Part shown: in pieces, positions 2,999 to 29,315 of the stretch | How the letters are laid out: the number at the start of each line of letters is the position of its first letter | How positions within the stretch are numbered: the stretch's first letter is position 1 | NCBI GenBank assembly: GCA_017529935.1 | Contig: JAFXNB010000043.1 | Location: forward strand, 1 to 32,343 | Length of the DNA: 32,343 bases | Reading direction: 5' to 3' | Source: Selenomonadaceae bacterium | Lineage (GTDB): Bacteria > Bacillota > Negativicutes > Selenomonadales > Selenomonadaceae | The notes under the pieces: generated by a model | What the model was told of the DNA's origin: nothing | Database searches by the model: none | The model's input: only the letters and a program-made list of their open reading frames with translations | Position numbers and translations under genes: made by a program

Positions 2999-3010
2999 GG
3001 AGGTTTGCTT

Positions 3011-3721
3011 ATGGCAATGTTGGAAGTTAAGGACATCAACGTTTACTACGGCGCGATTCACGCGATAAAAGGCATAAGTCTTGCGGTCGAAGAAGGCGAG
3101 ATTGTCACGCTGATAGGCGCGAACGGCGCGGGCAAGTCGACGACGCTGCGGACAATTTCGGGACTGCTCAAGCCAAAGACCGGCGAAATAAATTTCCTCA
3201 ACAAAAATATCGCGGGAATGCCAGCGCACAAAATCGTTCACGAGGGGATTTCGCAAGTGCCTGAAGGTCGGCGAATTTTCGCGGAAATGACGGTGCTGGA
3301 AAATTTGGAGCTGGGAGCCTTCACGCGCACCGACAAGGACGAAATTCAAAACGATTTCAAAATGGTATTCGGGCGTTTCCCGCGGCTGGAGGAAAGAAAA
3401 GCGCAGCTGGCAGGAACTTTATCCGGCGGCGAGCAGCAGATGTTGGCAATGGGGCGCGCGCTGATGAGTCGCCCAAAACTTTTGCTTATGGACGAACCGA
3501 GCATGGGACTTGCGCCGCTTTTGATTCGCGAAATTTTTAATATCATCGTCGACATAAACAAAACGGGCACAACAATTTTGCTCGTCGAACAGAACGCGAA
3601 CATGGCGTTATCGGTTGCGAGCCGCGCTTACGTTTTGGAGACGGGGCGAATTACAATCAGCGGCGACGCAAAGGAACTTGCCGCCAGTGAGGAAATTCGC
3701 AAGGCTTATCTCGGAGGATAA
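3011..3721 (+). CDS. livF: LivF-type branched-chain amino-acid ABC transporter ATPase
   Basis: 236 residues from ATG 3011, chosen because AAGGAGG at 2997-3003 lies 7 nt upstream; the TTG at 3005 is too close to it. It is a cytosolic ATPase of the LivF subfamily: Walker A GANGAGKST near residue 37, the Q-loop region with VPEGRRIFAEMTVLENL, signature LSGGEQQMLAMGRAL, Walker B LLLMDEPSMGLAP and the H-loop-equivalent LLVEQNANMAL. LivF normally works with LivG, LivH, LivM and a binding protein, but none of these is in the window. Instead it sits between the acyltransferase and the giant ATPase gene, whose ATG starts one base after the livF stop. The partners may lie upstream of the window, or this may be an orphan ATPase. 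Confidence 0.9.
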   Translation: MAMLEVKDINVYYGAIHAIKGISLAVEEGEIVTLIGANGAGKSTTLRTISGLLKPKTGEINFLNKNIAGMPAHKIVHEGISQVPEGRRIFAEMTVLENLELGAFTRTDKDEIQNDFKMVFGRFPRLEERKAQLAGTLSGGEQQMLAMGRALMSRPKLLLMDEPSMGLAPLLIREIFNIIVDINKTGTTILLVEQNANMALSVASRAYVLETGRITISGDAKELAASEEIRKAYLGG

Positions 3722-3722
3722 C

Positions 3723-6700
3723 ATGGAAAGATTGAAGATAATTAACGAACTACGCGCCACGCTAAACGAATTGCGCTTGGCGGGCACGGCACTCAAGGCG
3801 ACTTTCACCGAGCTGGAAGGTTTTATCGACGGAGAAAAATTTCCGGAACCCGACTTGGTGGAAGGCTCAAACAAAAATTTTAACAACTGGATTACCGGCG
3901 CGAACAACTGCACCTTGCTTTACTACAAACTTTTTGGCACCGACAAGCCGCCAACTTTTTCCGAGCTGGAAATGATTTTGGACGTGGCGGAGACAAGAAT
4001 CCGCGAGGAAAGTATCTTCGGGCAAGCGGAAAAATTTCTGCTGTTCGTCACCAAAGCTCCCGACCTTAGAAAAATTCTCCACGAACATCAAGCTAAGCTG
4101 AAAAAATTATTGGCGCGGAAACGGCAGAATGAAAAGTTAAGAGCCGCCCTTGCACCCTACGCAAAATTTATGAACGCCATGGAGGAAAAAGATTTTGGCA
4201 AAAAATTTTCGACGGGCGCGGAACTCAGAGAACTTTTCGGCGACGACTTCATTGGGCGCGGGCTTTTCGGCGGCGAATTGAATTTGTTGACGCCCGAAGA
4301 ATTCGCTAAGCAAAAACCTGCGCGGACTTGGTCTCGCAAGAAAAAAGTTGTAGCTCCGACGCCGCCCGAACAAAAAGATTTTGCCAAAATTCTCAATGAC
4401 AAGGGCGCACTGTTGACGCAAGAGGATTTCGTCCCGTGGGAAAAAATGTTCAGCGTGGAGAAAAACGAGCGCAGCAAAGAATTTTCCGCGAGCCGCTTTA
4501 AGCACGACTTCAAAAACGCCGAAACGTTCAAGCCGATTTTGTGCTACGTTGCGGCGAACGGTATGCTTTCTTGGCCTGCCTTCTGCCCGAAAAAAATGTC
4601 CAAGGAAATCATGGAGAGTCTTGCGCAACCGTTGTTTAACAGGGGCTACATTCAGAAATATTCTTTACAGGGCTACGGCTACTTTTACGGTCTGACAAAA
4701 AATTTTGTTGACTTCGCGAGAACTGACAGCGGCAAGAAATTTATCAACAGCAAACGCGGCAACAAATCCGAAATTGAAAACGTCGCGTTCCTTGCTGAAA
4801 AAGCAAAATATATTTTGGCGCGGGCGGCGTACTTTTTTCTCTACAACATCGAGATGGAGCAAAAAAATAAATTCTACGATTTGGATATTTCGCGGCAATC
4901 GTTTCGGGCGACTTTTGGCATCAACGACGAGCGCGATTTGTGGCTGGGCTGTTTCTGGGAGACGACGGACGACTGCGAAAAATTTTTGAAGCGGCTCAGG
5001 AATTGTCTGAAGCGGGAAAAGAAAATTAATCGCATCTTCGTCGTAGGCATCAACGTTCAGCACGCCAAAAAAGTTTTCGACGCGCTGGAGGAGATTTTGG
5101 CGGACGAATTCCCGAAAGACGCCGACTGCTACCTTTACGACTTCGACGAGGTTGACTTTTATCGCCGCGACACGATGGAAGTAGTTATTTCTTACGATAT
5201 TTGGGGCATGCCGACGCCGCCCGACGACGAACCCGAACCCGATAAAACTCCCGACGACAAGCCCGAAGAATCCGCAGAAGTTCCCGCCGTGCAAAAATCC
5301 GAGGCACCGCCAATCGACGCGACTGTCAAGGAAAAAATTTTGGGCGACGTGAAGGACATGCTCCTTGGCAAAAAATTTTACTGCGCGGCGGCTTATCTTA
5401 AGGCGCGGAGTTTGGAGCTTAAGGAGGCGGAGCCGCTTTATCGCCAGCTTGCCTTCGCGCTTGACGACCCGCTTTTGAACGAGGGCTACAGTGCCGACGC
5501 CGTGAGCATTTTGGCGTTGCAGGACGACGACGCGTTTAACGAGGCTTTGCTGACTGCCGCCGCCGTTCGCACGCTTTTTTATAATGATTTCGGCGTCGAT
5601 TACGGCGTCCCCGCCTTGAACGCGCTGACGAAAAGTTTTGGGCTTGTCAAGTCAAATGCCGCCTTGATTCAGCTGATTGACGAGCTGAAAACTTTCAAGG
5701 CGGAGCAAAAGAAGGGCGTCGACCTTTTCGCCGACTACCGCACAAAGGACAGACAAGCCGCCGAGGGAAATCTCGCCAAAATTATCCGCGACGCCGAAGA
5801 TTATTACATGCGCTACTTTGAGGGGAAATTGACTGACCGCGCCGACAACGAAACTTTTATTCGCATGGAGCGGGATATTTTTTCGCGCAACGGAGATTTG
5901 GCGCAAATTTTCAGCGCGATAAAGGATAAGACCGAGGCGCGTTCGACGGACACGTTAAACTTTGTCAAAGATTTTTTGGCGGAAACTTTTATCAAGGAAA
6001 ACGCCGGCTTCGAGCGGGTTAATATCGACGACGAAAAGCTTAACCAATTCATCGACGACAAATGGGAAAAGGCTTGCAACAAGAAAAATCCCGGCAAACT
6101 TATCAGCCGGCTCCGCAACAACATAACCAAGAACATGGAACGCGCCGTCGAAATTATGTGTGCGTGGGTGAATTGCGCGGAAATTCTGTGCGCGGGCGGC
6201 GACGATAGCGGCACTTTGGAATACAAAAAAATTCGTGCGCGGCTTTTGGATAACGTTCAGCAGGCGCAAAAAAATTTGGCGGCGGACGCGGGCGCGGTTG
6301 TTGTTGCCAAAACTTTGGAAGAACTTTCTGCGCGGCTTGACGGCTCCTACAACCGGCTTGAACACAAATATTTTTATGCGGAATTTTTATGCGGCGACAA
6401 AGTTGTCCTTGACGAAAATTATCTGCCGAACTTTGAGCTGAACATTTCCGACGGCACGCACGAAAATATTTCCGAACAGATTAAAAAGCACGCCGCGCAG
6501 AAGTTGCCGGACTTTGAAGCGCGTATCGAACAGATTTTTGAGGCGGGCGGCGACGATTTCGGCACCGCGCAACTGATTGACGATTATCTTAAAGATTTCA
6601 AGGGCGCGTCGATAATCGAGAAAAAAGAATACGACGTGGCGAAGTGCATGAACAGTGCCGCCAAGGACGCGCCGCGCAGTCTGGAAAATTTTATCGGCGG

Positions 6701-8903
6701 GCTGGAGCTGGCGCAGAGTTATGGACAATTCGACACGCTGCCCGAAGGTGAAAAGGAAAAAATTCTTCAGCTCGTCGAAAATTGCTACAAGTACGCCGAG
6801 GCTAGCAAAAATTTTGGCGTGTTCTTCCGCGTGAAAAAATATTGGGAGGACGTAATCGAGGACAACACCGCCCAACGCGCCGAAGCTCTCAAGGCTGATT
6901 TGGCGTCGGCGGCGGAGAATTACAAAAAAGTTGCGGATAATTTTAACGCGGCGGAGCTTGCCGACAGCGTCGAGGAAATTGAAAAGATAATCGCGGCGCG
7001 GAACTTCACGGCGGCGCAAGGTTTAATTTTCAAGCTCAATCGCGGCGAACTCTACAAAAAATTCGACGACGCCGAAGATACGCCGCTTGCCCGCTTTATC
7101 GACGCGGAGGAGTACAGCGATTGTTATAACAAGGTCAAGGACAGCGGCGACTCGCTGGAAAATTTGATTGGGAAGAAAATTTTTGTGCGCGATAAAATTT
7201 CCAACGCCAAAAGCAAGCTCGTCAAGAATTGGATAACAAATCCCGTCGGCGACGAAAAAATTAAGACGTTGCTGGAGTTGCTCGGCTTCAGCGTCGAGAG
7301 CGTGCAGAAACTTTTCCTGCTCAGTGCCAACACCGTAAACTTCCACGTGAAAATTTTCGGCACGGGACAAAAATATAGCCACCCGATAGCGGCGTTCGGC
7401 TCGGACGCGGAAATTGGCGGCTTCAACGTGTCGTGTCTGTTCGGCAAGTTCGACGAGAAAAATTTGGTCGAGAAGTTCAAGGAGCTGGGCAATTCAAATC
7501 ACACGCTGGTATTTTTGGATTACGCGCTGGACTTGCCGACACGCCGCCGCCTTGCTAAGGAAATTAAGCTGGAAAAAAGTTTGACAAAAGTTTTCGCGGT
7601 CGTCGACAGGGTCGCGATAATGTACCTGCTCAAAAACTGCGCGGCGCAACTGGGCACAAAACGAATCACCGATACGCTAATGTCGCTTATCATGCCGTTC
7701 GCCCGCTGTCAGCCTTACATCTGGTCGCCGCGAATCCCCCTGCCGCCGGAAATGTTCATCGGGCGCGAAAACGAAATTAACGAGGTCACGAATCACGGCG
7801 GAGTTAATATCGTCTGCGGCGGTCGCCAGCTCGGCAAATCCGCGCTGCTTAAAATGGCGTGCAGGAAAATCGACGGCAACAACAACGAGCGCGCGATTTT
7901 TATTGACATTGACGACAAAAATTATCGAGAGGCGGCGTTGCTGACCAGCCGCGAACTCAGCGATAAAAATTTCTTCGCCGAAGCTTTCGAGACGGACGAT
8001 TGGGAAGAACTCACCCGCGCCATAAGGAACCGCTTGGCAAGTGACGCGCCGACGAAAATTCCCTACTTCCTGCTCATGCTTGACGAGGCGGACAAATTTA
8101 TCGAATCCTGCGCGGAAAATAATTACGCGCCGATTGTCGCGCTGGCGAAAATTCAGCAGGAAGACTACGATGGCAGCCGCTTCAAATTCGTAATCGCGGG
8201 CTTGCGCAACATTATCCGTTTCGAGCGCGAAAAAACTTTCAGCAACAACAGCATTCTCCCGACGCTCAAATCGCTGACGATTAAGCCGTTCAACGTCGAG
8301 GACGCGCGGAAACTTTTGGAGGTGCCCTTACGCTACCTTGGCTTGTACTTCCCCGACACGCAAAAAGATTCGCTGATTCTGACGATTTTGGAGACGGCGA
8401 ATTATTTCCCCAGCTTGATTCAACTTTATTGCGAAAAATTGGTTCGGGCGTTGTTCGAGCCGAGTTACGCGGGCTACGACGCCAACACGCCGATTTATCG
8501 GATAAGCGAGGAGCACATTAAAAAAATCCTTGCCGATAAGGACTTCACAAAGGACATCAAAACCAAAATTGAAATCACGTTGCGCCTGGGCGAGGACAAA
8601 TATTATTACGTCATCGCGAATTTGCTGGCGCACCTTTACTACAATCAAAACAACGTCGAGGGTTATTCGCCCAAAGAAATTTTGACGGCGGCGGAAAGTT
8701 TCGGGCTGATTAAAGAGCCGTTCCTGCCGAATTCGCCTGAAAAAGTCGGCGCGCTCATGGAGGAGCTTTGCGAGCTGAACATTTTGCGCAAGACCGACGA
8801 GACGAAATATTTATTTTCGCGGCATAGAATTTTGCGGATAGTCGGCACTTTGAACGAGGTCGAAGACGCGCTCCTCAAGTTGATGGAGGCGGCACATGAA
8901 TAA
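3723..8903 (+). CDS. Giant STAND/AAA-type ATPase with winged-helix and helical-repeat regions
   Basis: 1726 residues from ATG 3723, with GGAGG at 3713-3717; upstream in-frame starts lie inside livF. The N-terminus is helical and charged. About residues 266-330 resemble a winged helix (YVAANGMLSWPAF). A Pro/Asp/Glu linker covers about 497-531, followed by roughly 650 mostly helical residues, partly TPR-like. An alpha/beta domain (about 1180-1330; FGSDAEIGG, HTLVFLDYALDL) leads into the ATPase: MFIGRENEI at 1344, Walker A GGRQLGKS at 1366-1373, Walker B LLMLDEAD with D1454-E1455, and a sensor-like VIAGLRN. A C-terminal winged-helix region follows. This order recalls large bacterial STAND signalling ATPases; I cannot name the family. 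It overlaps the next gene by 8 nt, so the two are coupled. A nucleotide-driven sensor or switch is inferred. Confidence 0.75.
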   Translation: MERLKIINELRATLNELRLAGTALKATFTELEGFIDGEKFPEPDLVEGSNKNFNNWITGANNCTLLYYKLFGTDKPPTFSELEMILDVAETRIREESIFGQAEKFLLFVTKAPDLRKILHEHQAKLKKLLARKRQNEKLRAALAPYAKFMNAMEEKDFGKKFSTGAELRELFGDDFIGRGLFGGELNLLTPEEFAKQKPARTWSRKKKVVAPTPPEQKDFAKILNDKGALLTQEDFVPWEKMFSVEKNERSKEFSASRFKHDFKNAETFKPILCYVAANGMLSWPAFCPKKMSKEIMESLAQPLFNRGYIQKYSLQGYGYFYGLTKNFVDFARTDSGKKFINSKRGNKSEIENVAFLAEKAKYILARAAYFFLYNIEMEQKNKFYDLDISRQSFRATFGINDERDLWLGCFWETTDDCEKFLKRLRNCLKREKKINRIFVVGINVQHAKKVFDALEEILADEFPKDADCYLYDFDEVDFYRRDTMEVVISYDIWGMPTPPDDEPEPDKTPDDKPEESAEVPAVQKSEAPPIDATVKEKILGDVKDMLLGKKFYCAAAYLKARSLELKEAEPLYRQLAFALDDPLLNEGYSADAVSILALQDDDAFNEALLTAAAVRTLFYNDFGVDYGVPALNALTKSFGLVKSNAALIQLIDELKTFKAEQKKGVDLFADYRTKDRQAAEGNLAKIIRDAEDYYMRYFEGKLTDRADNETFIRMERDIFSRNGDLAQIFSAIKDKTEARSTDTLNFVKDFLAETFIKENAGFERVNIDDEKLNQFIDDKWEKACNKKNPGKLISRLRNNITKNMERAVEIMCAWVNCAEILCAGGDDSGTLEYKKIRARLLDNVQQAQKNLAADAGAVVVAKTLEELSARLDGSYNRLEHKYFYAEFLCGDKVVLDENYLPNFELNISDGTHENISEQIKKHAAQKLPDFEARIEQIFEAGGDDFGTAQLIDDYLKDFKGASIIEKKEYDVAKCMNSAAKDAPRSLENFIGGLELAQSYGQFDTLPEGEKEKILQLVENCYKYAEASKNFGVFFRVKKYWEDVIEDNTAQRAEALKADLASAAENYKKVADNFNAAELADSVEEIEKIIAARNFTAAQGLIFKLNRGELYKKFDDAEDTPLARFIDAEEYSDCYNKVKDSGDSLENLIGKKIFVRDKISNAKSKLVKNWITNPVGDEKIKTLLELLGFSVESVQKLFLLSANTVNFHVKIFGTGQKYSHPIAAFGSDAEIGGFNVSCLFGKFDEKNLVEKFKELGNSNHTLVFLDYALDLPTRRRLAKEIKLEKSLTKVFAVVDRVAIMYLLKNCAAQLGTKRITDTLMSLIMPFARCQPYIWSPRIPLPPEMFIGRENEINEVTNHGGVNIVCGGRQLGKSALLKMACRKIDGNNNERAIFIDIDDKNYREAALLTSRELSDKNFFAEAFETDDWEELTRAIRNRLASDAPTKIPYFLLMLDEADKFIESCAENNYAPIVALAKIQQEDYDGSRFKFVIAGLRNIIRFEREKTFSNNSILPTLKSLTIKPFNVEDARKLLEVPLRYLGLYFPDTQKDSLILTILETANYFPSLIQLYCEKLVRALFEPSYAGYDANTPIYRISEEHIKKILADKDFTKDIKTKIEITLRLGEDKYYYVIANLLAHLYYNQNNVEGYSPKEILTAAESFGLIKEPFLPNSPEKVGALMEELCELNILRKTDETKYLFSRHRILRIVGTLNEVEDALLKLMEAAHE

Positions 8904-9945
8904 TCGCTCAGAGCTGTTCGGAAAAATTTGGTGGGAAGATTTAAACGGTCCGCGCAGATTTTTAGTTGACGCGGCAGAAAAATTATCGGGCGGCAAAAGT
9001 GTCGTGTTGAGTTTGCCGGTACGTGTGCCGTGGTTCGGGACAATGCGCGACGTTCTGGAAAAGTTGTTAAGCAAGGGCACGCAAAGCATTAACATCGTCG
9101 ACGCGGAAAATATTTCCGATGAGCCGCAAGAATACGTTCTAAAGGAATTTTGCGCGAACAAAGACGGCTTCCGCCCCTACAGCAAGAAGGCCTACGCGAA
9201 ATTTTTGGCGGAGAGCAAGGGAATCGCGCTAAACGACAGCTGCATTTGGATTCGCAACGCCACGCCCGCGCAGGTCGACAAATGGCTCACGTTCATTGCC
9301 GATTATCAAAAATTTTTGAACGGCAAAAGCGGCGGCGTCTTCCTTTTGGAGGCGGAAAATTTTATCGGCAAGGCGGCGGGCGTCGAAATTCTTTCCTACG
9401 CGGACGAAATCAGCGACTACGACAGCTTTGCGTTCAATATTTTTGTGGCGGCGGACTTCGGCAACGAGAATCACTTGATGAAGCAATATCTCGCCGAACT
9501 TGTTTCCGCCTTGACGGAAGGCGACGTGGAATTCGGCGCAGAATGCATTGACAGGAGCGAAACTTTCCTTAAAAATCCCGGCGAAACTTTTGATGATATT
9601 TTGTGGGAAGGAAAATTTACTTCGGGGAAGAGCACCGACGACATTGAGCAAGCGATTTGGATGACGCAATTAAAATTAATTTTCCCGCTCGTCGAGACTT
9701 TCCGCCGCAACTTTATCAAGCAGTACGAAGAGCAAATTAAGAACACGCCGCCCTATTATCACGTGCCCGAAGAAGTGGAAATCGGGCAACTTTACGGGCA
9801 GTTCAATCAGCGGCGGTGGCTTATCAACGACAACGACGCCGACGATTTGGAAATGTATCGGGAAGTGCGCAATAAGCTGGCGCATTTGGGAACGGTGGCT
9901 TTCGACGATTTGCAGAAAATTTTCGAGAAGAATTCGCGCCGATAA
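8896..9945 (+). CDS. Uncharacterised protein with C-terminal HEPN-like Rx4H motif
   Basis: 349 residues. ATG 8896 has GGAGG at 8885-8889 and overlaps the end of the giant ATPase gene by 8 nt. Residues 1-200 look like an alpha/beta fold ([35 protein letters not shown]), reminiscent of a P-loop fold without a recognisable Walker A. The C-terminal 120 residues are helical and end in [12 protein letters not shown], where R325-N-K-L-A-H330 fits the Rx4-6H motif of HEPN ribonucleases, in the right place near the last helix. HEPN proteins often act as RNA-cleaving effectors in toxin-antitoxin and phage-defence systems. The pairing with a STAND ATPase suggests sensor plus effector, but RNxxAH also occurs in non-catalytic HEPN proteins. 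No name can be given. Confidence 0.65.
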
Positions 9946-9976
9946 ATTTAACGTTGAATCTTATTGGAGGTTATTG

Positions 9977-11086
9977 ATGAGTATTATTGAAGTTCACGGC
10001 TTAAAAAAATCTTTCGGGCAGTTGGAAGTTCTGCGCGGCATTGATTTGACGGTTGAAGAGGGCGAACGGATTGCGATAATCGGCGGCTCCGGTTGCGGCA
10101 AAAGTGTCTTCCTGCGCTGTCTGGAACTTTTAGAGACTCCGAACGCGGGACAAATTTTTATCGACGGGGAAGAACTCACCGCGCCCAACGTCAACATTGA
10201 TTTAATCCGCCGCAAAATGGGCATGGTCTGGCAGAAATTTAATCTGTTCACGCATATGAACGTTATGGAAAATTTAACCGTCGCGCCGATAAAACTTTTG
10301 GGCATGACAAAGGACGCGGCGCACGAAAAAGCAATGTCTTTGCTGGCGCAGGTCGGCTTGACTTCCAAGGCGGAAGCTTATCCGGAATTTTTATCGGGCG
10401 GACAACAGCAACGTATCGCAATTTGCCGCAGCCTGATGATGAATCCCAAAGTTATTCTCTTCGACGAACCGACAAGCGCGCTTGACCCGACGATGGTCGG
10501 CGAAGTGCTTGCCGTTATCCGTATGCTCGCAAAACAGGATTTAACGATGATTATCGTGACGCACGAGATGAATTTTGCCCGCGAAGTCTCCACGAGGATT
10601 TTATTTTTCGCGGACGGCGTGATTTATGAACAAGGCACGCCCGCCGAAATTTTCGACGCGCCTAAACTCCCTAAGACTGTCGCCTTTATCCACAAGCAAA
10701 AATATTTTTCCTACGAAATTACCGAACGCGCCTTTGACTTAATGGAGTTGCAGGGCGGCATTCAAACTTTCGCGGAAAAATACGGGCTTTCGACGCGCAA
10801 AATTAATCGTCTCCAGCTGTGTTGCGAAGAATTGATTTACGCAATGCTCGACAATGCCTGCGGTGACGACGTGAAAATTTCGCTCGATATTACTTATGCC
10901 GAGGCGGATAACAGCGTCGCGATAAAATTTTCCTGCGCGGGCAAGTCGTATAATCCGCTCGACAAAGATTTGGACGAACTCGACGAAGAAAATCTTGGCG
11001 CGGCAATTTTGCATAATCTCGCCAAAAATTATTCCCACCAATACAGCGACGGCGTCAACGAAATAAAATTTTCGCTGAGCGGCTAA
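9977..11086 (+). CDS. GlnQ-type amino-acid ABC ATPase fused to degenerate RsbW-like HATPase domain
   Basis: 369 residues from ATG 9977, with TTGGAGG at 9964-9970. Residues 1-240 are a polar amino-acid ABC ATPase: Walker A GGSGCGKS, signature [15 protein letters not shown], Walker [14 protein letters not shown] and H-loop [10 protein letters not shown]. From about residue 250 a second domain aligns with the anti-sigma kinase encoded at 26145. [10 protein letters not shown] matches the N-box but has A289 where Asn binds Mg2+, and [10 protein letters not shown] matches DSGKPYNPLE but has C320 in place of the ATP-binding Asp. The fused domain is therefore probably not a kinase and may be a protein-binding module. 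No permease or binding protein lies nearby. The bidirectional terminator at 11102 ends the run. The ABC assignment is firm; the role of the extra domain is inference. Confidence 0.85.
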
Positions 11087-21394: not shown

Positions 21395-21745
21395 CTAAAT
21401 CTTCGGCAAAGCTCGCAAAGTCACCTCGCCCGTAAAATTATCATGCGTTACGAAAAAAACCTCGTAATTGCCGGGCGTCAAGTCGATAGAAAGTTCCTGC
21501 GTCTTGTTTAGTGTATGAATTCTGCCGCCGATTTCCATTTCAATTTGCCCGCGTTCGATTTTCGCCTCGACAGCCAAGACTCCGTCGGGAACTTCGATAT
21601 AACCTTCAGCGTCGCCGTCGTCGCTGTCTTTGCCCTCAAGGTGAATCGTCATGTCGGTTGATTTTATAATTAAAGTTCCGCCAAATAAACAGCCGCTCAT
21701 AATCATCGCCGCAACCAAAATCACTGCGCAAAAAATTTTCTTCAA
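21395..21745 (-). CDS. Small lipoprotein of unknown function
   Basis: 116 residues. The start at 21745 overlaps the stop of the phosphatase gene (ATGA), so the two are coupled. A lipoprotein signal peptide ends in MSGC (C19). The mature part is acidic and looks all-beta (IEVPDGVLAVEAKIERGQIEMEI, TPGNYEVFFV), similar in feel to small surface beta-sandwich modules, but no family is recognised. The position between a sensor phosphatase and an amidase suggests an envelope function under the same control. Confidence 0.75.
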   Translation of the reverse strand: MKKIFCAVILVAAMIMSGCLFGGTLIIKSTDMTIHLEGKDSDDGDAEGYIEVPDGVLAVEAKIERGQIEMEIGGRIHTLNKTQELSIDLTPGNYEVFFVTHDNFTGEVTLRALPKI

Positions 21746-23958
21746 GCCTTGCCGCCTCCCTTAAACCTCAGCGCGAACATAGTTATATCGTCCGATTGCT
21801 CCGCCGTGCCCACATGCGCCGCCACGTCTCCGCGAATATTTTTCAGTAGCGTTTTCAAGTCAGCCGCGCAGTCCGTCGAATTCATGAACGCAATCAATCG
21901 TTCGGGCAAATATTCTTCCTCCGCCACGTTCAAAGCCTCCGTTACGCCGTCCGTGTACAGGAAAAGCAAATCGCCGCGCTTGAGTGAAATTTTTTGTTCG
22001 AAAAAGGGAATGCCGTCCATAGGTCCGAGCACAAAATTTTTCTTAACGTCAAGGAAATCGCAATGATTTTCTTCCGCGCGATAAACGACGGGAGGATTGT
22101 GCCCGCCGTTGACGTAAGTAAATTCGCCCGTCTCCAAATCCAGCACGCCGATAAAAACCGTCACGAACATCATCGCCTCGTTGTTGGCGCAGAGCTGTTC
22201 GTTGGCGGCGGCAACCACAGGAGCCAATCCGTTCTGCTTATAAAAACTCGCGGCGAAGTTGTTCAGAATCGTCTTGCTGATAACCATGAACAGCGCGGCG
22301 GAAATTCCCTTGCCGGAAACGTCCGCGACCGTTATCGCCAAATGTTTTTCGTCAAGGAAATAAAAATCGTAGAAATCGCCGCCAACTTCTTTAGCGGGTG
22401 TCATCGTCGCATAAAGTTCAAAATCTGCGCGGGCGGGGAAATCTTTTGGCAACATGCCGCGTTGAATTTCTCTGGCAACGTCAAGCTCGGTGGCAAGGCG
22501 TTCGCGCTCGGCAGTGGCTTTCGTCAAGTTCTCCATGTAAGTTTTCAACTCGTCGGTCATTGCGTTGAAGCACGCGGCAAGATGTTCAATCTCGTCGCCC
22601 GTTTGAATGTCCAATTTTTTATCGATGTTGCCGCTGGCAATGTCGCGCACGCCGTCGCTAAGTTCGTGAATCGGCTTGACAAATCGCCGCGCAAGTCCCG
22701 TACTCATAAGGAACAAAATTATCAGCAGGACGACGGGCACGCCCACAACTAATTTGTTCATGTAGGAATATTCCTGCCGCATTTGCGCTTGAAGATTGGC
22801 GACTTGTTCTTGAAAATAATCGCGGGTGGTTTTCGTCGCGCTAAAGATTTCTGATTCTTTGACGACCATGCCGAATCTCCAGCCGGTTTCGGGCATCGGC
22901 GCGAAGGAAATGTAAAAATTCTCGCCGTCCAATTTGATAGGCAAAACGTCCTGTTCGCCCGCAACCATTTTTTTTGCCGCTTCCGCCAAAGTGCTTTCGG
23001 AACTGTTGCGCAAATCGCGACTTTCATTTCTAGCGACAAGATCGTCCGAAACATTCACGGCAAAAATCCCTGAAGTCTGCGTCGAGAAAATTACTTCGCC
23101 GCGGTCGTTGAGCACAAAATTTGCGTTGTCCCTGCTGTCGGTGAAATCGTTAATCCATTTGTAAAAGTCGGTGTTGTTGTAATCCAAGCCCGCCACGCCG
23201 ATTAAATTGCCCGCCGCGTCGTAGAAAGGAGCGGACGCGCCAATTTGTTGATAGCCGTTCGCCTCAATCGTGCGGTACAGGTCGGAGATAACGGGCTTGC
23301 CCGCTCTTTTCGCGGAGATATACCAAGGACGTTTGCGCGGGTCGAATTCGTAAATTCGTTCGTGCGAAAAATAAATCGGATTGGTGAAATCGGTTGCGCC
23401 GTTTTCGTCGACGACGAGGCGCGAGCAAATATACCAGCCCTTTTCCCCGCCGACAAAAGCCGTCGCGTTGTAGCCTTCATAGTCCTTAAGCGTTTCCGCC
23501 ATAATGTCTTTGATGTTCGCGGCAAGCTCCAATTCCCGTTGAATTTCGGGCGTAACATTGTCACGAATATCTGGCGCGTAAATCCTGTACGGTTCGTCGT
23601 TGTGAATCGGGTCGGTGCGCGGGTCGGGCAAAGTCTTTGGCAAATAATCTTCGGGGTGCGACATTATCTCCGTCACGGCGTTCGCCAAAATTGTCGCGTC
23701 CTCTTTGATGATATACATTTCGCGGTCAATGAATTGCGCCTTAGCCTTTGTCAGTTCGCCGAGTGTCTGCTTGAGCTGTTCGGTTAAAAGGTTTCCGGTA
23801 TAGCTCGCGCTTTTTTCTCCGAGTTCGAAGCTCATCAACATCATATCCCGTTGCACAATATTTTTGCCGAAGTAAGAAAAAATGCCGAGCACAAGGAAAG
23901 TCGTCAGCCCCGCGCCCAAAACTAATATCAAAACTTTTTTGTGAATGTTAAGCTTCAT
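21742..23958 (-). CDS. Transmembrane sensor phosphatase: dCache-HAMP-SpoIIE (RsbU-like)
   Basis: 738 residues from ATG 23958. TM1 is near residues 8-30. A large periplasmic dCache-type sensor (about 35-395) includes FDPRKRPWYISAKRAGKP and ASAPFYDAAGNLIGVAGLD. TM2 spans about 402-422, followed by HAMP (RFVKPIHELSDGVRDIASG). A linker helix (ATELDVAREIQRGMLP) leads to the PP2C-type SpoIIE phosphatase with GGDFYDFY (metal Asp near 528), VADVSGKGISAALFM, VNGGHNPPVVY, LYTDGVTEA and SDDITMFAL, all intact. The expected reaction is dephosphorylation of the Ser-phosphorylated STAS protein encoded at 26564 when a ligand is sensed outside. It is the second of two tandem paralogues and overlaps the first by 11 nt. 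Confidence 0.92.
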   Translation of the reverse strand: MKLNIHKKVLILVLGAGLTTFLVLGIFSYFGKNIVQRDMMLMSFELGEKSASYTGNLLTEQLKQTLGELTKAKAQFIDREMYIIKEDATILANAVTEIMSHPEDYLPKTLPDPRTDPIHNDEPYRIYAPDIRDNVTPEIQRELELAANIKDIMAETLKDYEGYNATAFVGGEKGWYICSRLVVDENGATDFTNPIYFSHERIYEFDPRKRPWYISAKRAGKPVISDLYRTIEANGYQQIGASAPFYDAAGNLIGVAGLDYNNTDFYKWINDFTDSRDNANFVLNDRGEVIFSTQTSGIFAVNVSDDLVARNESRDLRNSSESTLAEAAKKMVAGEQDVLPIKLDGENFYISFAPMPETGWRFGMVVKESEIFSATKTTRDYFQEQVANLQAQMRQEYSYMNKLVVGVPVVLLIILFLMSTGLARRFVKPIHELSDGVRDIASGNIDKKLDIQTGDEIEHLAACFNAMTDELKTYMENLTKATAERERLATELDVAREIQRGMLPKDFPARADFELYATMTPAKEVGGDFYDFYFLDEKHLAITVADVSGKGISAALFMVISKTILNNFAASFYKQNGLAPVVAAANEQLCANNEAMMFVTVFIGVLDLETGEFTYVNGGHNPPVVYRAEENHCDFLDVKKNFVLGPMDGIPFFEQKISLKRGDLLFLYTDGVTEALNVAEEEYLPERLIAFMNSTDCAADLKTLLKNIRGDVAAHVGTAEQSDDITMFALRFKGGGKA

Positions 23959-26134
23959 TTCCGCGACTCCCGTTAAATCTCAACGCGAACATCGTTATAT
24001 CGTCCGATTGCTCCGCCTCGCCGACATGCGCCGCCACATCTCCGCGAATATTTTTCAGCAGTGTTTTCAAGTCCGCCGCGCAGTTCGTCGAGTTCATGAA
24101 TTTTATCAGCCGTTCGGGCAAATATTCTTCCTCCGCCACGTTCAAAGCCTCCGTTACGCCGTCCGTGTAGATAAAAATCATATCTCCGCGCTTAAACGTC
24201 GTGCGCTGTTCGACAAAGGGAATTTCGTCCATTGGTCCCATAACGAAATTTTTCTTCACGTCGAGGAAGTCGCAATGATTTTCTTCCGCGCGATAAACGA
24301 CGGGAGGATTGTGTCCGGCGTTGACGTAAGTAAACTCGCCCGTCTCCAAATCCAGCACGCCGATAAAAACCGTCACGAACATCATCGCCTCGTTGTTGGC
24401 GCAAAGTTTATCGTTGGCGGCGGCGACGACTTCGGCAAGCCCTTCGCGGTTGTGAATCGACACCATGAAGTTATGCAAAACCGTTTTGCTGATAACCATG
24501 AACAGCGCGGCGGGAATTCCCTTGCCGGAAACGTCCGCGACCGTTATCGCCAAGTGCGTCTCGTCGATAAAATAAAAATCATAGAAATCGCCGCCGACTT
24601 CCTTAGCAGGCTTCATCGTCGCGTAAAGTTCAAAATCTGCGCGGGCAGGAAAATCTTTGGGCAACATGCCGCGTTGAATTTCCGTGGCAACGTTCAGCTC
24701 GGTGGCAATGCGTTCCTTTTCCGCCGTGACTTTCGTCAAGTTCGCCGTGTAAGTTTTCAACTCGGCAGACATGGCGTTAAAGCACGTTGCAAGGTGTTCA
24801 ATCTCGTCGCCCGTTTGAATGTCAAGTTTTTTGTCGAAGTTACCGCTGGCAATGACGCGCACGCCGTCGCTTAGCTCGTGAATCGGCTTGACTAATCGCG
24901 CTGAAAGTTTATTGCTTGTCAACCAAAAAACATAGCTCAAGCCGCCCAACAAAACCGCGCTGACCAGCATTATAAAAAACCATTCGATTTGAAACCGACT
25001 GATGAAGCCGTCAACCTGCGCAAAGAAATAATTTTTGGCATTATCCGCCGCCGCAGTAATGTCTTTGCGCGGAGTCAACGTGGCGAAACTCCAGCCGATA
25101 CTTTTCATGGGCGCGAACGCAATCAAATATTCTTCGCCGTCGACAAGCACGGGCATAATCCCGCTTTGACCGTCGACCATTTTTTTTGCCGCCGCCGCCA
25201 AAGTTTTCTCACTGCTTGTGCGCACGTCGTACTTGTTCTCGTTTGAGCGCAGGTCGTTGCTTTCGTGCGAAGAAAAAATAACTTCGCCCTTGCCGTTCAT
25301 CACGAAGCTGAAACCGTTTTCTCCAACCGCCGTTTCGTCAATGGATTTGTAAATTTCAATGTTGGGCACGTCCATTCCGACGACACCCGCCACGTTGCCC
25401 GCCGCGTCGTAGTAGGGCGCGGAGCAACCGAACCGCTGATATTTGCCCAAGTTGGCGTGCGAATAGAGATCAAAGAAAACAGGCGTGTTCGCGGCGACGG
25501 CTTTTTGATACCAAGGACGCGTTCGCGGGTCGTAATCGGAAAGTTCGCTCTCCGTGAAAGGCTTCGGGGCATTTGGCGTATCGGGGAAGGACGGACAGCA
25601 GATAAAACAGCCGTGCTTTGTGCCGATATAAACCGACGAAGGGTATTGCATGAACGTGCGCTCAATCGGGGCAAGCAATACGCGAATGTTCCCGATTGCC
25701 CCAAGCTCGCGTTCAATTTCGGGCGTCAAGCCGTTGCGCTTAATTTCGGGTCCGTAAGTCATGTACGTTTGCAGATTATAAACCGGCTCGAATTGCGGAT
25801 TGATAAGTTTAACAGGCTTGTAATTTTCGGGATTGGACATAAGTCTCGTTATAGTTCGCGACAAAATCACTATGTCGCCGCGAATCACATAAAGCTTCTG
25901 TTCGATAAAACCTGCGCGGGCAACTGCCAATTCTCCGAGCGTCTGCTTGATTTGATAAGTCATCAGCGATTCGGTAAAGTTCGCGCCCGCCTTGCCGAGT
26001 TTGTCGCCCAGCTCCGTCATTTCGCCGCGCATGATTGTCATACCGTAAAAAGAAAGACCGCTCAAAGTCAAAAATGACAATATCCCCGCCGCCAAAACGA
26101 GGACGAGCAGTCTCTTTTGTATGTGCCATCTCAT
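23948..26134 (-). CDS. Transmembrane sensor phosphatase paralogue: dCache-HAMP-SpoIIE
   Basis: 728 residues from ATG 26134; TGAGG, overlapping the stop of the kinase gene, supplies the ribosome site, and the TTG three bases earlier is less likely. The architecture matches its downstream paralogue: TM1, periplasmic dCache with YDPRTRPWYQKAV and YDAAGNVAGVVGMD, TM2 near 375-397, HAMP (RLVKPIHELSDGVRVIASG), then SpoIIE phosphatase with GGDFYDFYF (near 514), VADVSGKGIPAALFM, VNAGHNPPVVY, YTDGVTEALN and SDDITMFAL. The phosphatase halves of the two proteins are nearly identical, while the sensor halves differ strongly, so two signals probably feed one output. It directly follows the RsbW-type kinase gene. 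Confidence 0.92.
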   Translation of the reverse strand: MRWHIQKRLLVLVLAAGILSFLTLSGLSFYGMTIMRGEMTELGDKLGKAGANFTESLMTYQIKQTLGELAVARAGFIEQKLYVIRGDIVILSRTITRLMSNPENYKPVKLINPQFEPVYNLQTYMTYGPEIKRNGLTPEIERELGAIGNIRVLLAPIERTFMQYPSSVYIGTKHGCFICCPSFPDTPNAPKPFTESELSDYDPRTRPWYQKAVAANTPVFFDLYSHANLGKYQRFGCSAPYYDAAGNVAGVVGMDVPNIEIYKSIDETAVGENGFSFVMNGKGEVIFSSHESNDLRSNENKYDVRTSSEKTLAAAAKKMVDGQSGIMPVLVDGEEYLIAFAPMKSIGWSFATLTPRKDITAAADNAKNYFFAQVDGFISRFQIEWFFIMLVSAVLLGGLSYVFWLTSNKLSARLVKPIHELSDGVRVIASGNFDKKLDIQTGDEIEHLATCFNAMSAELKTYTANLTKVTAEKERIATELNVATEIQRGMLPKDFPARADFELYATMKPAKEVGGDFYDFYFIDETHLAITVADVSGKGIPAALFMVISKTVLHNFMVSIHNREGLAEVVAAANDKLCANNEAMMFVTVFIGVLDLETGEFTYVNAGHNPPVVYRAEENHCDFLDVKKNFVMGPMDEIPFVEQRTTFKRGDMIFIYTDGVTEALNVAEEEYLPERLIKFMNSTNCAADLKTLLKNIRGDVAAHVGEAEQSDDITMFALRFNGSRGNEA

Positions 26135-26144
26135 CAAGACAACC

Positions 26145-26552
26145 TCAGAAAAACTTTTTCATGCGCAGAATATTTTTTCCGTCCGCGTATTCGTAGGTAA
26201 TTTCGTCGACATTTTTTTTGACAAGGAAAATACCCAAGCCGCCCACGTCGCGCTCTTCAATGGCAAGTTCGGTATCGGGGTCGGCTTTTTCAAGCGGATT
26301 GTAAGGTTTGCCGCTGTCAATGAAAGTCATCAGCACGGCGTTCGGATTTTCTTCAAATTCCATGCAAAAAGTCGCCGCGCCAGTTTCGGGGCAGTAAGCG
26401 TAGGTCGCGATGTTGACAAAAATTTCTTCGACGACAAGTTCAACTTGCATGATAATTTTCATGGAGCAATCGCGCGCTTCTAAATGTTCCGTCGCGAAGT
26501 CAATAACCGTCTGAAGATTTTCAAGGACAGCTTCAACAGTAATCTTTTCCAT
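26145..26552 (-). CDS. RsbW-type anti-sigma factor / Ser kinase (HATPase_c_2)
   Basis: 135 residues from ATG 26552; a GTG at 26561 would add three residues but has no ribosome site. It is the complete kinase-like domain: VVEEIFVNIATYA with E42, E43 and Mg2+-binding N47, FIDSGKPYNPLEKADPD with ATP-binding D79 and G81, and GGLGIFLVKKNVDEITYEYADGKN. In this family it phosphorylates a STAS antagonist and, when free, binds and inhibits a sigma factor or another target. It lies 11 nt downstream of the STAS gene and 10 nt before the first phosphatase, forming the core of a partner switch. No sigma factor gene is near, so the target is unknown. Confidence 0.92.
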   Translation of the reverse strand: MEKITVEAVLENLQTVIDFATEHLEARDCSMKIIMQVELVVEEIFVNIATYAYCPETGAATFCMEFEENPNAVLMTFIDSGKPYNPLEKADPDTELAIEERDVGGLGIFLVKKNVDEITYEYADGKNILRMKKFF

Positions 26553-26563
26553 AAAATTCACCG

Positions 26564-26860
26564 TTAAGCAATCGTCATCAAGCTGGCAAAGCCCGTCATG
26601 TCCAAAACTTCCATAACTGCTTCGCTAACGTTGATAAGTTTCATCGAACCCTGCTTGTTCATGCGCTTTTGAGCGACGAGCAACACCCTAAGCCCCGCCG
26701 ACGCGATATACTTCAGCTCCGCGAAATCGAACGTCAAGTCCGTCACGCCTTCAAGCGCGGTCGTCAGTTCCTTGGAGAGTTCAGGTGCACTCGTTGCGTC
26801 AAGCCGCCCGATAACTTTAATCGTCAATGCACTCCCGTTTTGTTCCTTTTTAATTTCCAT
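26564..26860 (-). CDS. STAS-domain anti-anti-sigma factor (RsbV/SpoIIAA-like)
   Basis: 98 residues from ATG 26860. The AAGGAG ribosome site lies in the last codons of the histidine-kinase gene, 9 nt upstream. A single STAS domain reads LTIKVIGRLDATSAPELSKEL, then LTFDFAELKYIASAGLRVLL, where S54 in the IASAG motif is the expected phosphorylation site. When dephosphorylated by the SpoIIE proteins it would bind the RsbW-type kinase encoded next and free that kinase's partner. It ends with the usual helix (VSEAVMEVLDMTGFASLM). Confidence 0.94.
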   Translation of the reverse strand: MEIKKEQNGSALTIKVIGRLDATSAPELSKELTTALEGVTDLTFDFAELKYIASAGLRVLLVAQKRMNKQGSMKLINVSEAVMEVLDMTGFASLMTIA

Positions 26861-26863
26861 TCT

Positions 26864-28501
26864 TTATAACTCCTTTCGAGCTGCAATATATTTGTTGACG
26901 GAGGCAACAAGTTGCACCACGTCAAACGGTTTGGCTATGTGATAATTCATGCCGCTTTCCATGCTCATGCGCTTATCTTCGTCGCGGCTGTTGGCACTTA
27001 GCGCGATAATCGGCAAAACTTTCGCGTCGGGTCTGTCAAGTGCGCGAATAGCCCGCGTCGCCTCGTAGCCGTTCATTATCGGCATTTGTATATCCATCAA
27101 AACTAAATCGTAGTAGCCGGGCGGGTGTTTGATAAAAGCCTCCACAGCTTCGACGCCGTCAGCAACCGTCTCGACTGAAAAGCCCGATTCCTCCAAAATA
27201 GTTTCGGCGAGCATTCTGTTCAATTCAATGTCGTCGACCAGCAAAATCCTGTTGCCGTAGCCGTCCTCCATTGGAATTTTTTCAACCGGCGCGGCGTTAT
27301 CAACTTCGTGCTCCTCGCGATAAATTTTAAACGGCAAGCCTACAGTAAAAGTTGTGCCCTTGCCTTTTTCGCTGACAGCTTCGATTGAGCCGCCCATCGC
27401 GTCGATAAGTTTTTTAGTTATGGCAAGTCCAAGCCCCGCGCTGATATGCCCCGTTTCCGTCGAAGTCGCCTCGCGCTCGAAGGTCTCGTACATGCGCTTC
27501 ATAAATTCCGCCGTCATGCCGACGCCGTCATCAGAAATCGTGAATTCGCAACGGACATAGTTTGTGTCCTCGGAAAGTTTTTTCTTCTTGGCGGTGAGTT
27601 TGACGTGCCCGCCCGTGGGCGTGAATTTAATAGCGTTGTCGACCAAGCTTGAAAGAATTTTTCTTAAGTTCACGTCGTCGGTATAAACCATTTCGCGCGG
27701 CAAATTCGTCACGCATTCCAGAGAAATATTTTTGCTCTCCGCCCTGTGCTTGAAGGCGTGAACCACAACCAGCACTTGCTCCTCCAAATCGCAGACTTCG
27801 GAGCGCAGTTGCGCCTTGCCGTAGGTTATCTTGCTCATGTCAAGCAGGTCGTTGACGAGATTTAACATCTGTAGGCTGCTCTCGTCGACTTTTTCCAGAT
27901 AACTTTTCAAAAGTTCCGGCTCGTTGAGGTGCCGCCGCGCCAATTCCGTAAAACCTCGGATTGAATTCAGCGGCGTCAAGATGTCGTGCGAAATGCTAAA
28001 CAGAAACGCCGCTTTGACTTCGTTCGCCTGTCTCTCTCTTTCCAATTCCATTTCCATGCGCAACTTCTCCTCCTGAACAAGCCGTCGTTCGGTAATGTCG
28101 CTGATAAAAACGTAAAAAGCGTCGCCGTGTTCGGGGAAAGTCGCGAAGTGCCCGTAGTCATCAATCCAGCGAACTTCTCCGTCCCTGCGCGTGATTCGAT
28201 ATTCCACGTGGTCGAGCCGGTCGTTATCGGGGTCGGCGATTTGCTCTTCGATTGACTCCTGAATTGCGTCGAAGTCGTCGGGATAAACCATGCCTTGAAA
28301 AGTGTAGCCCGTCAGCTCCTTGAACTCGTCGAGATTTTCGCAACCGTAAATATCCAAAACCGCGCTGTTGGCGTAGAAAAGCTCATAAGGCTCCTTGGCA
28401 GAATAGACGAAGAACCCGCCCGGAACTTGTTCGGCGACCCATTTTAACATCGGCAAGACTTCGTACAAATATTTCTTGCCTAAAAAAGTCGTTTTTCCCA
28501 T
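26864..28501 (-). CDS. Cytosolic hybrid sensor histidine kinase: PAS-HisKA-HATPase-REC
   Basis: 545 residues from ATG 28501, chosen because AGGAG lies 6 nt upstream and a good promoter sits 30 bases before it; the open frame extends further upstream without support. No membrane segment or signal is seen. A PAS domain covers about 15-135 (GGFFVYSAKEPYELFYANSA; ends in FVFISDITERR). A coiled linker is followed by HisKA with H172 in SISHDILTPLNSIRGF, the catalytic domain with DNAIKFTPTGG, DDGVGM and SAGLGLAI, and a C-terminal receiver with DD near the start and phospho-acceptor D470 in VLMDIQMPIMNGYEA. It is the first gene of the partner-switching operon, so a phosphorelay and Ser-based switching may converge. 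No separate output regulator is present in the window. Confidence 0.93.
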   Translation of the reverse strand: MGKTTFLGKKYLYEVLPMLKWVAEQVPGGFFVYSAKEPYELFYANSAVLDIYGCENLDEFKELTGYTFQGMVYPDDFDAIQESIEEQIADPDNDRLDHVEYRITRRDGEVRWIDDYGHFATFPEHGDAFYVFISDITERRLVQEEKLRMEMELERERQANEVKAAFLFSISHDILTPLNSIRGFTELARRHLNEPELLKSYLEKVDESSLQMLNLVNDLLDMSKITYGKAQLRSEVCDLEEQVLVVVHAFKHRAESKNISLECVTNLPREMVYTDDVNLRKILSSLVDNAIKFTPTGGHVKLTAKKKKLSEDTNYVRCEFTISDDGVGMTAEFMKRMYETFEREATSTETGHISAGLGLAITKKLIDAMGGSIEAVSEKGKGTTFTVGLPFKIYREEHEVDNAAPVEKIPMEDGYGNRILLVDDIELNRMLAETILEESGFSVETVADGVEAVEAFIKHPPGYYDLVLMDIQMPIMNGYEATRAIRALDRPDAKVLPIIALSANSRDEDKRMSMESGMNYHIAKPFDVVQLVASVNKYIAARKEL

Positions 28502-28530
28502 ACTTTCTCCTGCTAAAAAGTTTTTTTGCA

Positions 28531-28560
28531 ATAATACCACAGCTCGCCGATTTTGTACAA
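28531..28560 (-). promoter_or_regulatory. Promoter of the hybrid-kinase/partner-switch operon
   Basis: On the minus strand TTGTAC (28560-28555), an 18-bp spacer and TATTAT (28536-28531) with an upstream TG (extended -10) lie about 30 nt before the kinase ATG, just downstream of the HNH stop codon. Confidence 0.7.
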
Positions 28561-28580
28561 AGAAATTTTTCACGACCGCG

Positions 28581-29315
28581 CTATAAGTGTTCGTTGAGTT
28601 GCAAAATTTCCTCGCGACCGTTCGGATAGAGATAAAGTTTGCGTTCGCGGTCAAAAATAGGATTGGCGGCGTGAATGATTCGATGATGATTCGGGCAGAC
28701 GATTAGAAGATTCGCCGCGTCGTTGTTCAAGCTCTCGGAAAAAGGCGTTATGTGGTGGCAGTCAACCAAATTCACGCCGTAAAATTCGCCGACGCTCCGC
28801 CCGCAAATTTGGCAACGGAAATTATAATTGCGCTTCAATCGTTCGCCGATTTCCCGATTGAGTTTGCGATATTTAGTCAAGCCGAATTTTTCAATCAACG
28901 CCGCCTGCGTGTCTGTCAGCGTCGGCAAGTCCAAAAGATTTTCAACCGTCTGTTCGTTGCAGGCAAACTCCGCCTTCAAATAAAAAAGGTTTTTAATTTC
29001 CGTCGGGTACAGCGTGAAAAATTTTTGTCCCGCCGAAAAAATTTCGCGAACACGTTCACCAACTGCCCTGCCGTAATTAATCTGCCACATGTCTTTTCGG
29101 TTCGGATATTTATTTTGATTGAAGCCAATGCTCCGCAAAGTCACTTCAAAAAATTCGCCGTCAATAAGAATTGCGACCGCGCGTTTTTCGCCGTGCGCCA
29201 ACTGCCCGCCACTAAGATAAAAAGAAAAAATTTCCATAGCCTCGGACGGAATTGCGAAACCGCTTTTGAACAGCGATTCATTGACGGGTTTGCTGATTAA
29301 AAAATTTTCGCTCAT
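28581..29315 (-). CDS. HNH endonuclease family protein
   Basis: 244 residues. ATG 29315 overlaps the csaB stop (ATGA). The C-terminal 80 residues are an HNH nuclease: CQIC (C168, C171), VDCHHITPFSE with catalytic H187/H188, the NNDAANLLIVCPNHH segment with central Asn and C207/H210, and a final H215. The N-terminal 160 residues contain a beta-rich part (RAVAILIDGEFFEVTLRSIGF) that may recognise DNA, followed by a helical part. The arrangement resembles small restriction-like HNH proteins, but no methyltransferase is nearby. Coupling to a cell-wall gene is probably chance operon packing. Chemical activity is likely; the biological role is unknown. Confidence 0.85.
   Translation of the reverse strand: MSENFLISKPVNESLFKSGFAIPSEAMEIFSFYLSGGQLAHGEKRAVAILIDGEFFEVTLRSIGFNQNKYPNRKDMWQINYGRAVGERVREIFSAGQKFFTLYPTEIKNLFYLKAEFACNEQTVENLLDLPTLTDTQAALIEKFGLTKYRKLNREIGERLKRNYNFRCQICGRSVGEFYGVNLVDCHHITPFSESLNNDAANLLIVCPNHHRIIHAANPIFDRERKLYLYPNGREEILQLNEHL

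Follow-up and report, generated by a model that had tools for sequence, protein, structure and literature searches.

The window, as we call the whole 32,343-nucleotide stretch that was analysed, derives from an uncultured Quinella-like rumen member of the Selenomonadaceae. Behind a livF-type transporter gene, it carries two overlapping genes for a giant STAND-type ATPase and a small partner protein. The features of the locus are as follows.

3005-3721, forward strand: livF-type (branched-chain amino-acid-type) ABC ATPase, immediately 5' of the giant gene; left border of the insertion.
3723-8903, forward strand: giant STAND ATPase, 1726 aa (open reading frame, Shine-Dalgarno sequence and start codon, PDB profile matches, purifying selection).
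3723-5336, forward strand: fast-evolving N-terminal region of the giant, residues 1-538; putative sensor or input.
5337-7232, forward strand: middle of the giant, residues 539-1170; mostly helical, as judged by eye from the sequence.
7245-7652, forward strand: alpha/beta domain before the ATPase, residues about 1175-1310 (conservation, low-confidence model).
7740-8522, forward strand: STAND/ORC-type AAA+ core of the giant, residues about 1340-1600 (conservation, PDB profile matches).
7818-7841, forward strand: Walker A, GGRQLGKS, residues 1366-1373; its G and K positions are invariant in alignment A4.
8082-8087, forward strand: Walker B, D1454-E1455 (LLMLDEAD); the invariant D349 and E350 of alignment A4.
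8217-8219, forward strand: R1499 of an AGLxNxxR motif, invariant (R394 of alignment A4); candidate arginine finger or sensor.
8550-8882, forward strand: winged-helix-like region at the C-terminus, residues about 1610-1720; modelled better than the rest of the giant.
8896-9945, forward strand: small partner, 349 aa; predicted inactive STAND domain plus HEPN domain.
8896-9411, forward strand: residues 1-172 of the small protein, predicted ORC/STAND AAA+ fold without Walker A or B (fold match, family conservation).
9613-9942, forward strand: HEPN domain of the small protein, residues about 240-349; putative RNase effector.
9868-9885, forward strand: R325-NKLA-H330, the putative Rx4-6H catalytic motif; R and H are the two sole invariant columns among 24 diverse relatives.

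The giant gene begins at the ATG at 3723, which has a GGAGG Shine-Dalgarno sequence and lies 1 nt behind the livF stop codon; an in-frame TTG further upstream, at 3615, is a less likely start. The small gene starts within the last codons of the giant gene and has its own GGAGG Shine-Dalgarno sequence. A sequence-only reading of this DNA had described proteins of 1726 and 349 residues, the Walker A and Walker B positions, the terminal R325-NKLA-H330 and the 8-nt overlap, all of which proved exact when the sequence was read again. It had also placed the pair between transporter ATPase genes. These are the livF-like ABC ATPase on the 5' side and, on the 3' side (9974-11086), an ABC ATPase with a fused HATPase_c_2 (RsbW-like) domain at its C-terminus. 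Both genes of the pair are under purifying selection, with dN/dS values of 0.09-0.19 for the small gene and 0.14-0.23 for the giant gene, compared with 0.05-0.09 for livF. No Rfam families or tRNAs were found in the window. Further downstream (21742-28654), two Cache-HAMP-SpoIIE phosphatases adjoin a gene for a HATPase_c_2 anti-sigma-type kinase, forming a partner-switching signalling cluster, and a PAS hybrid histidine kinase lies beyond it.

We compared the C-terminal domain of the small protein across 24 relatives from Bacillota, Pseudomonadota (alpha and gamma), Rhodothermota and Actinomycetota, which are 11-48% identical to the window protein. The only invariant columns are R325 and H330; N326, E295, W255, Q258 and P264 are nearly invariant. 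Against a Swt1-like HEPN profile built from genuine domains of other genomes, hhalign gave 92.8% and a score of 44.8, compared with scores of at most 13.0 for 30 column-shuffled versions and 10.5 for the reversed one. Swt1 and Abi_2, an accepted HEPN pair, reach only 27% by hhalign, and our domain is as similar to Abi_2 as Swt1 is. Weak HEPN_Swt1 matches were found for 8 of the 24 members, and others matched the Abi_2, HepT or RiboL-PSP HEPN families, with every single-sequence Pfam HEPN match falling below the cut-off. The model predicts helices at residues 247-283, 292-305, 312-329 and 336-347, at a pLDDT mostly below 50. Because R and H are the sole invariant columns and the hhalign score lies far above its controls, profile comparison establishes this domain as HEPN at the family level, nearest to the Swt1-like group, and the HEPN assignment suspected around R325 and H330 is supported. 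Catalysis on RNA by the HEPN partner is likely.

We consider it improbable that the HEPN-like fold serves only for protein contacts, as a non-catalytic adaptor, and that the effector is another domain, for example the alpha/beta or N-terminal region of the giant. An adaptor would suit the description of the eukaryotic Swt1 HEPN as inactive (PMC3710099), the sub-threshold single-sequence matches and the presence of further uncharacterised conserved alpha/beta regions in the giant. However, R and H stay invariant across phyla, above any structural residue, and Ava_2192, a Swt1-like family of bacteria, has been listed as active (PMC3710099).

The N-terminal part of the small protein had been missed in the sequence-only reading, which saw the protein as HEPN-like and did not notice a degenerate STAND domain. 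Fold comparison of the modelled residues 1-172 gave consistent matches to ORC subunits, archaeal Cdc6, TnsC, clamp loaders, CED-4, Dark and the ZAR1 resistosome of plants (Z 7.8-10.5, rmsd 3.3-5.2, 125-164 residues); by VIA-align, Z was 8-10.5 for ORC subunits, Cdc6, CED-4, Dark and ZAR1. The model is of moderate quality here (blocks at pLDDT 47-82 within residues 20-170) and poor in the rest of the protein. A P-loop is not conserved in the family; the window protein has a GKS that precedes the first strand and is also unconserved. The region thus models as an ORC/STAND-type domain that would have lost nucleotide binding. This assignment rests on the fold model, since the profile of the small N-terminus, aligned directly with that of the giant ATPase, scored no higher than shuffled controls.

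The giant contains Walker A, Walker B and an ORC/STAND-type core followed by the winged-helix-like region. Walker A, Walker B and the arginine of its AAA+ core are conserved across phyla, and the core profile matched human Cdc6 (2e-4) and the archaeal STAND sensor PH0952 (7e-4) in the PDB. Single-protein searches of Pfam, NCBIfam, PADLOC and the PDB returned generic AAA matches or none. PADLOC has no model for the pair, and its PDC-S01 matches were discarded because they covered the P-loop only. The two AlphaFold models are weak (mean pLDDT 52 and 47), mainly because the alignments consisted of close relatives only, and AlphaFold/Foldseek results for the C-terminal 667 residues of the giant were too poor for use except in the winged-helix part. 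The alpha/beta domain at about residues 1175-1310 may, tentatively and by its model, be a catalytically dead nuclease-like fold. Giants outside the genus have an additional C-terminal domain (hhalign score 39 versus at most 16.6 for shuffles) that looks like a second, degenerate STAND copy in this comparison.

Towards the N-terminus the giant diverges. Within clade A, the branch of the genus that holds the window, mean identity to the window protein is 71% in the core and drops to 44% over residues 1-538. Homology to distant giants (hhalign) begins at residue 539, leaving residues 1-538 unaligned to them, and distant giants carry other domains in this position, namely pPIWI-RE and sigma-70. 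The Azospirillum giant has a pPIWI-RE X/MID/RNaseH module at its N-terminus, and the giants of Microvirga and Bradyrhizobium are annotated likewise as RNaseH-domain proteins. Together, the fast evolution, the start of homology at residue 539 and the replacement domains fit an exchangeable input region. On a Brasilonema plasmid (L073:4032-10901), the giant begins with a complete sigma-70 factor (regions 1.2-4) and is thus a sigma factor-STAND fusion.

In searches of 66 genomes of the genus with sensitive profiles, 53 had the giant, 52 the small protein and 50 both, at about one copy each. The two genes therefore co-occur, as the sequence-only reading would have them do, and distant pairs adjoin in other phyla as well. 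In all three genomes with only the giant (G024, G039, G014), the giant is cut by a contig end. Of the two genomes with only the small protein, one (G011) has its gene at a contig start. The other, G003 (estimated 100% complete), encodes a 1199-aa giant without the P-loop region (L039:5332-9950) that overlaps an intact HEPN partner by 4 nt, with RNELSH retained. Judged by its sequence, this is a natural ATPase-less form in which ATPase control would not be strictly required, since the HEPN partner is kept beside a P-loop-less giant. Five genomes (G009, G029, G042, G395, G399) have the two genes on separate contigs, with other neighbours wherever the surroundings were read; assembly error is possible in some of these drafts. 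Both genes are nevertheless present, so they are retained together even when unlinked. Near-complete genomes with neither gene also exist (e.g. G049, G055). The small protein was found in none of the other genera sampled in the family (0 of 8) and only sporadically in the rest of the phylum (5 of 298 genomes).

Overlapping genes, a HEPN-type partner and co-retention are also expected of a toxin-antitoxin-like pair, in which the small HEPN protein would be the toxin and the giant would hold it off. We regard this as very improbable: the partner is a switch ATPase of 1700-3400 residues, unlike a typical small antitoxin, and the small protein is kept both where the giant has lost its ATPase core (G003) and where the genes are unlinked.

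Phylogenetic analysis of the ATPase core divided the genus sequences into two fully supported clades, A and B, with the window in A. The clade A pair lies behind livF in most genomes, whereas the clade B pair is found at other sites, with livF of these genomes elsewhere. In genomes without the pair at this site, the next gene after livF is a CBS-ACT gene (G054, G023, G003), or one other gene stands between the two (G049), and many clade A genomes have the order livF-giant-small-CBS-ACT. Since the same CBS-ACT gene follows livF without the pair and follows the pair where it is present, the pair behaves, by gene order, like a self-contained unit that has entered or left between livF and CBS-ACT. 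In the clade A loci that were read, the ABC ATPase-HATPase_c_2 gene next to the pair was limited to the window and its closest relative, G043 (L056).

These patterns bear on whether the pair has been domesticated. A conflict-derived module may now serve as a housekeeping stress or growth regulator at the RNA level, tied in clade A to the operon for branched-chain amino-acid transport (livF). Near-ubiquity in the genus at about single copy, purifying selection, the 1-nt spacing to livF in the window and the position behind livF in most clade A genomes would suit this role. In both clades the pair lies among housekeeping genes and outside any defence island, which confirms the earlier remark that the window locus is no obvious defence island. 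This setting, and the occurrence of about one copy per genome with the giant in 53 of 66, count against defence and agree with domestication. However, the clade B pair occupies other sites, some genomes have an empty site and no pair, and the giants of the two clades, which are homologous end to end (1629 columns, 22% identity), are only 22-29% identical between clades, although livF identity across the genus is 83% or more. Such divergence suits arms-race genes or separate acquisitions, and we consider domestication unlikely.

Outside the genus, distant pairs were found in other Bacillota and in three further phyla, and their surroundings differ from those in Quinella. Plain pairs were found on plasmids of Salinibacter, Thiodictyon and Methylocystis. 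Azospirillum (L101:3262-19205) has a complete pPIWI-RE island, with PprRE (1e-55), PprDinG (6e-177) and PprPIWI (1e-55), in which PprPIWI is fused to the giant STAND protein and a HEPN-polynucleotide-kinase protein follows. On Agrobacterium pTiCFBP4996, the order is a WYL regulator, the giant, a HEPN-kinase protein and then E1-E2/JAB-type and patatin genes. WYL regulators and recombinases are further defence-type neighbours of relatives, and an HKD-SNF2/DrmD-like helicase adjoins one relative giant. The partner can also change: the giants of Burkholderia (L079:3912-13249) and Cupriavidus (L099:4597-16989) have a DISARM DrmE_C-like protein in place of the HEPN partner, in Cupriavidus together with a DEAD helicase, and the Euzebya giant has a TPR protein. 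Burkholderia and Cupriavidus apparently have a different system on the same ATPase. PIWI-RE, REase and DinG were unmatched in the window pair and in the neighbouring genes scanned. No relatives were found in phage records, and scans of viral contigs gave nothing usable.

In Azospirillum, Microvirga, Bradyrhizobium and Agrobacterium, a polynucleotide-kinase-like domain (AAA_33) is fused to the HEPN domain. Cleavage by HEPN enzymes yields RNA with 5'-OH ends, and polynucleotide kinases phosphorylate such ends. The fusion is thus independent support for a predicted RNase, and by pointing to RNA ends it argues against a purely adaptor-like HEPN fold. Eukaryotic Las1-Grc3 likewise joins a HEPN nuclease to a polynucleotide kinase, for rRNA processing (PMC10942766). 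It resembles the rhizobial and Azospirillum relatives in this coupling but has no STAND partner, and the small protein of the window lacks a kinase.

Because relatives lie in a pPIWI-RE island and beside other defence genes, we interpret the pair as probably a two-gene conflict module, directed against phages or mobile elements, that would work as a STAND-HEPN switch. A defence or stress system had been proposed from the sequence; the relatives among defence genes elsewhere speak for it, while the Quinella neighbourhood gives it no support. The idea of a sensor ATPase with an RNA-cleaving effector gains support from the STAND matches and the HEPN signature. The observed part of this model consists of the two proteins with their conservation, linkage and joint retention, of the HEPN signature and STAND-type folds, and of the relatives among defence genes. 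The fast-evolving N-terminal half and the helical middle of the giant would sense an invader-derived or damage signal. From what is known of the family, ATP binding would then drive assembly through the C-terminal AAA+ and winged-helix core, and the P-loop-less STAND domain would bring the small protein into the giant assembly. HEPN domains juxtaposed in this way could cleave RNA without metal, using R325 and H330, and the cleavage would stop translation or growth in a manner resembling abortive infection.

The closest description is the nSTAND2 two-gene system, a mobile system predicted to counter invaders (Kaur, Iyer, Burroughs, Aravind, eLife 2021, PMC8195603, Fig. 6C). The passage on it describes an active STAND NTPase and a partner with eroded NTP-binding motifs fused to a variable effector, most commonly GT4 or a HEPN RNase, with an arginine finger in both STAND proteins (PMC8195603). 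Our pair matches this as two adjacent genes for a predicted active STAND giant and an inactive STAND-HEPN partner. The likeness is one of architecture, as the passage gives neither size nor accession. R1499 of the giant is invariant, but no arginine finger was assigned in the small protein. Among the plasmid relatives we saw no GT4-type partner, which would have tied the family to nSTAND2. The pPIWI-RE, sigma-70 and polynucleotide-kinase fusions are absent from the nSTAND2 passage. We found no experimental study of the nSTAND2 two-gene system in the open-licence PMC literature. The earlier view of the system as undescribed holds in that no experimentally characterised family was found; it is too strong otherwise, because the architecture matches the 2021 prediction (PMC8195603).

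Other known systems share parts of the design. The three-gene pPIWI-RE island (PMC3702460) is represented by the full set of genes in the Azospirillum relative, but in that relative PIWI and the giant STAND form one fused protein and the HEPN-kinase protein comes next, and the 2013 text names neither HEPN nor an ATPase; a PIWI domain is absent from the window pair. DUF499/BrxC-like ATPases (Ava_2192; type-1 BR systems; PMC3710099, PMC12839542) also couple a Swt1-like HEPN to an ORC/STAND-type AAA+ ATPase. In those proteins, HEPN is N-terminal on the ATPase and travels with a methyltransferase and a helicase, whereas the window HEPN belongs to a separate protein with its own inactive STAND domain and has no methyltransferase. 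New here are the fusion of the giant to pPIWI-RE in a complete island, the HEPN-polynucleotide-kinase-like fusion, the exchangeable N-termini of the giants and, in the rumen genus, the empty site between livF and CBS-ACT. The finding is a form of a predicted system and not categorically new, because the testable nSTAND2 features are present, the arginine finger of the small protein aside.

A broader reading is possible, which we put forward tentatively. The giant STAND protein may be a general immune relay, in which interchangeable inputs (an Argonaute-like pPIWI-RE protein, a sigma-70 module or other sensors) act through one ATPase core on a separate inactive-STAND-HEPN RNase, in some cases with a kinase. 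If so, guide- or nucleic-acid-sensing would be coupled to RNA destruction, and the kinase would process the cut ends. The conflict module favoured above supplies a sequence and candidate catalytic residues for a class of immune switch that has so far only been predicted. Two clades in one genus, unlinked pairs, a P-loop-less giant and kinase-fused and PIWI-fused forms provide a natural panel of variants. Through this family, a prokaryotic Argonaute-like island with an as yet unsettled effector logic is also connected with a putative HEPN RNase, and this link is directly testable.
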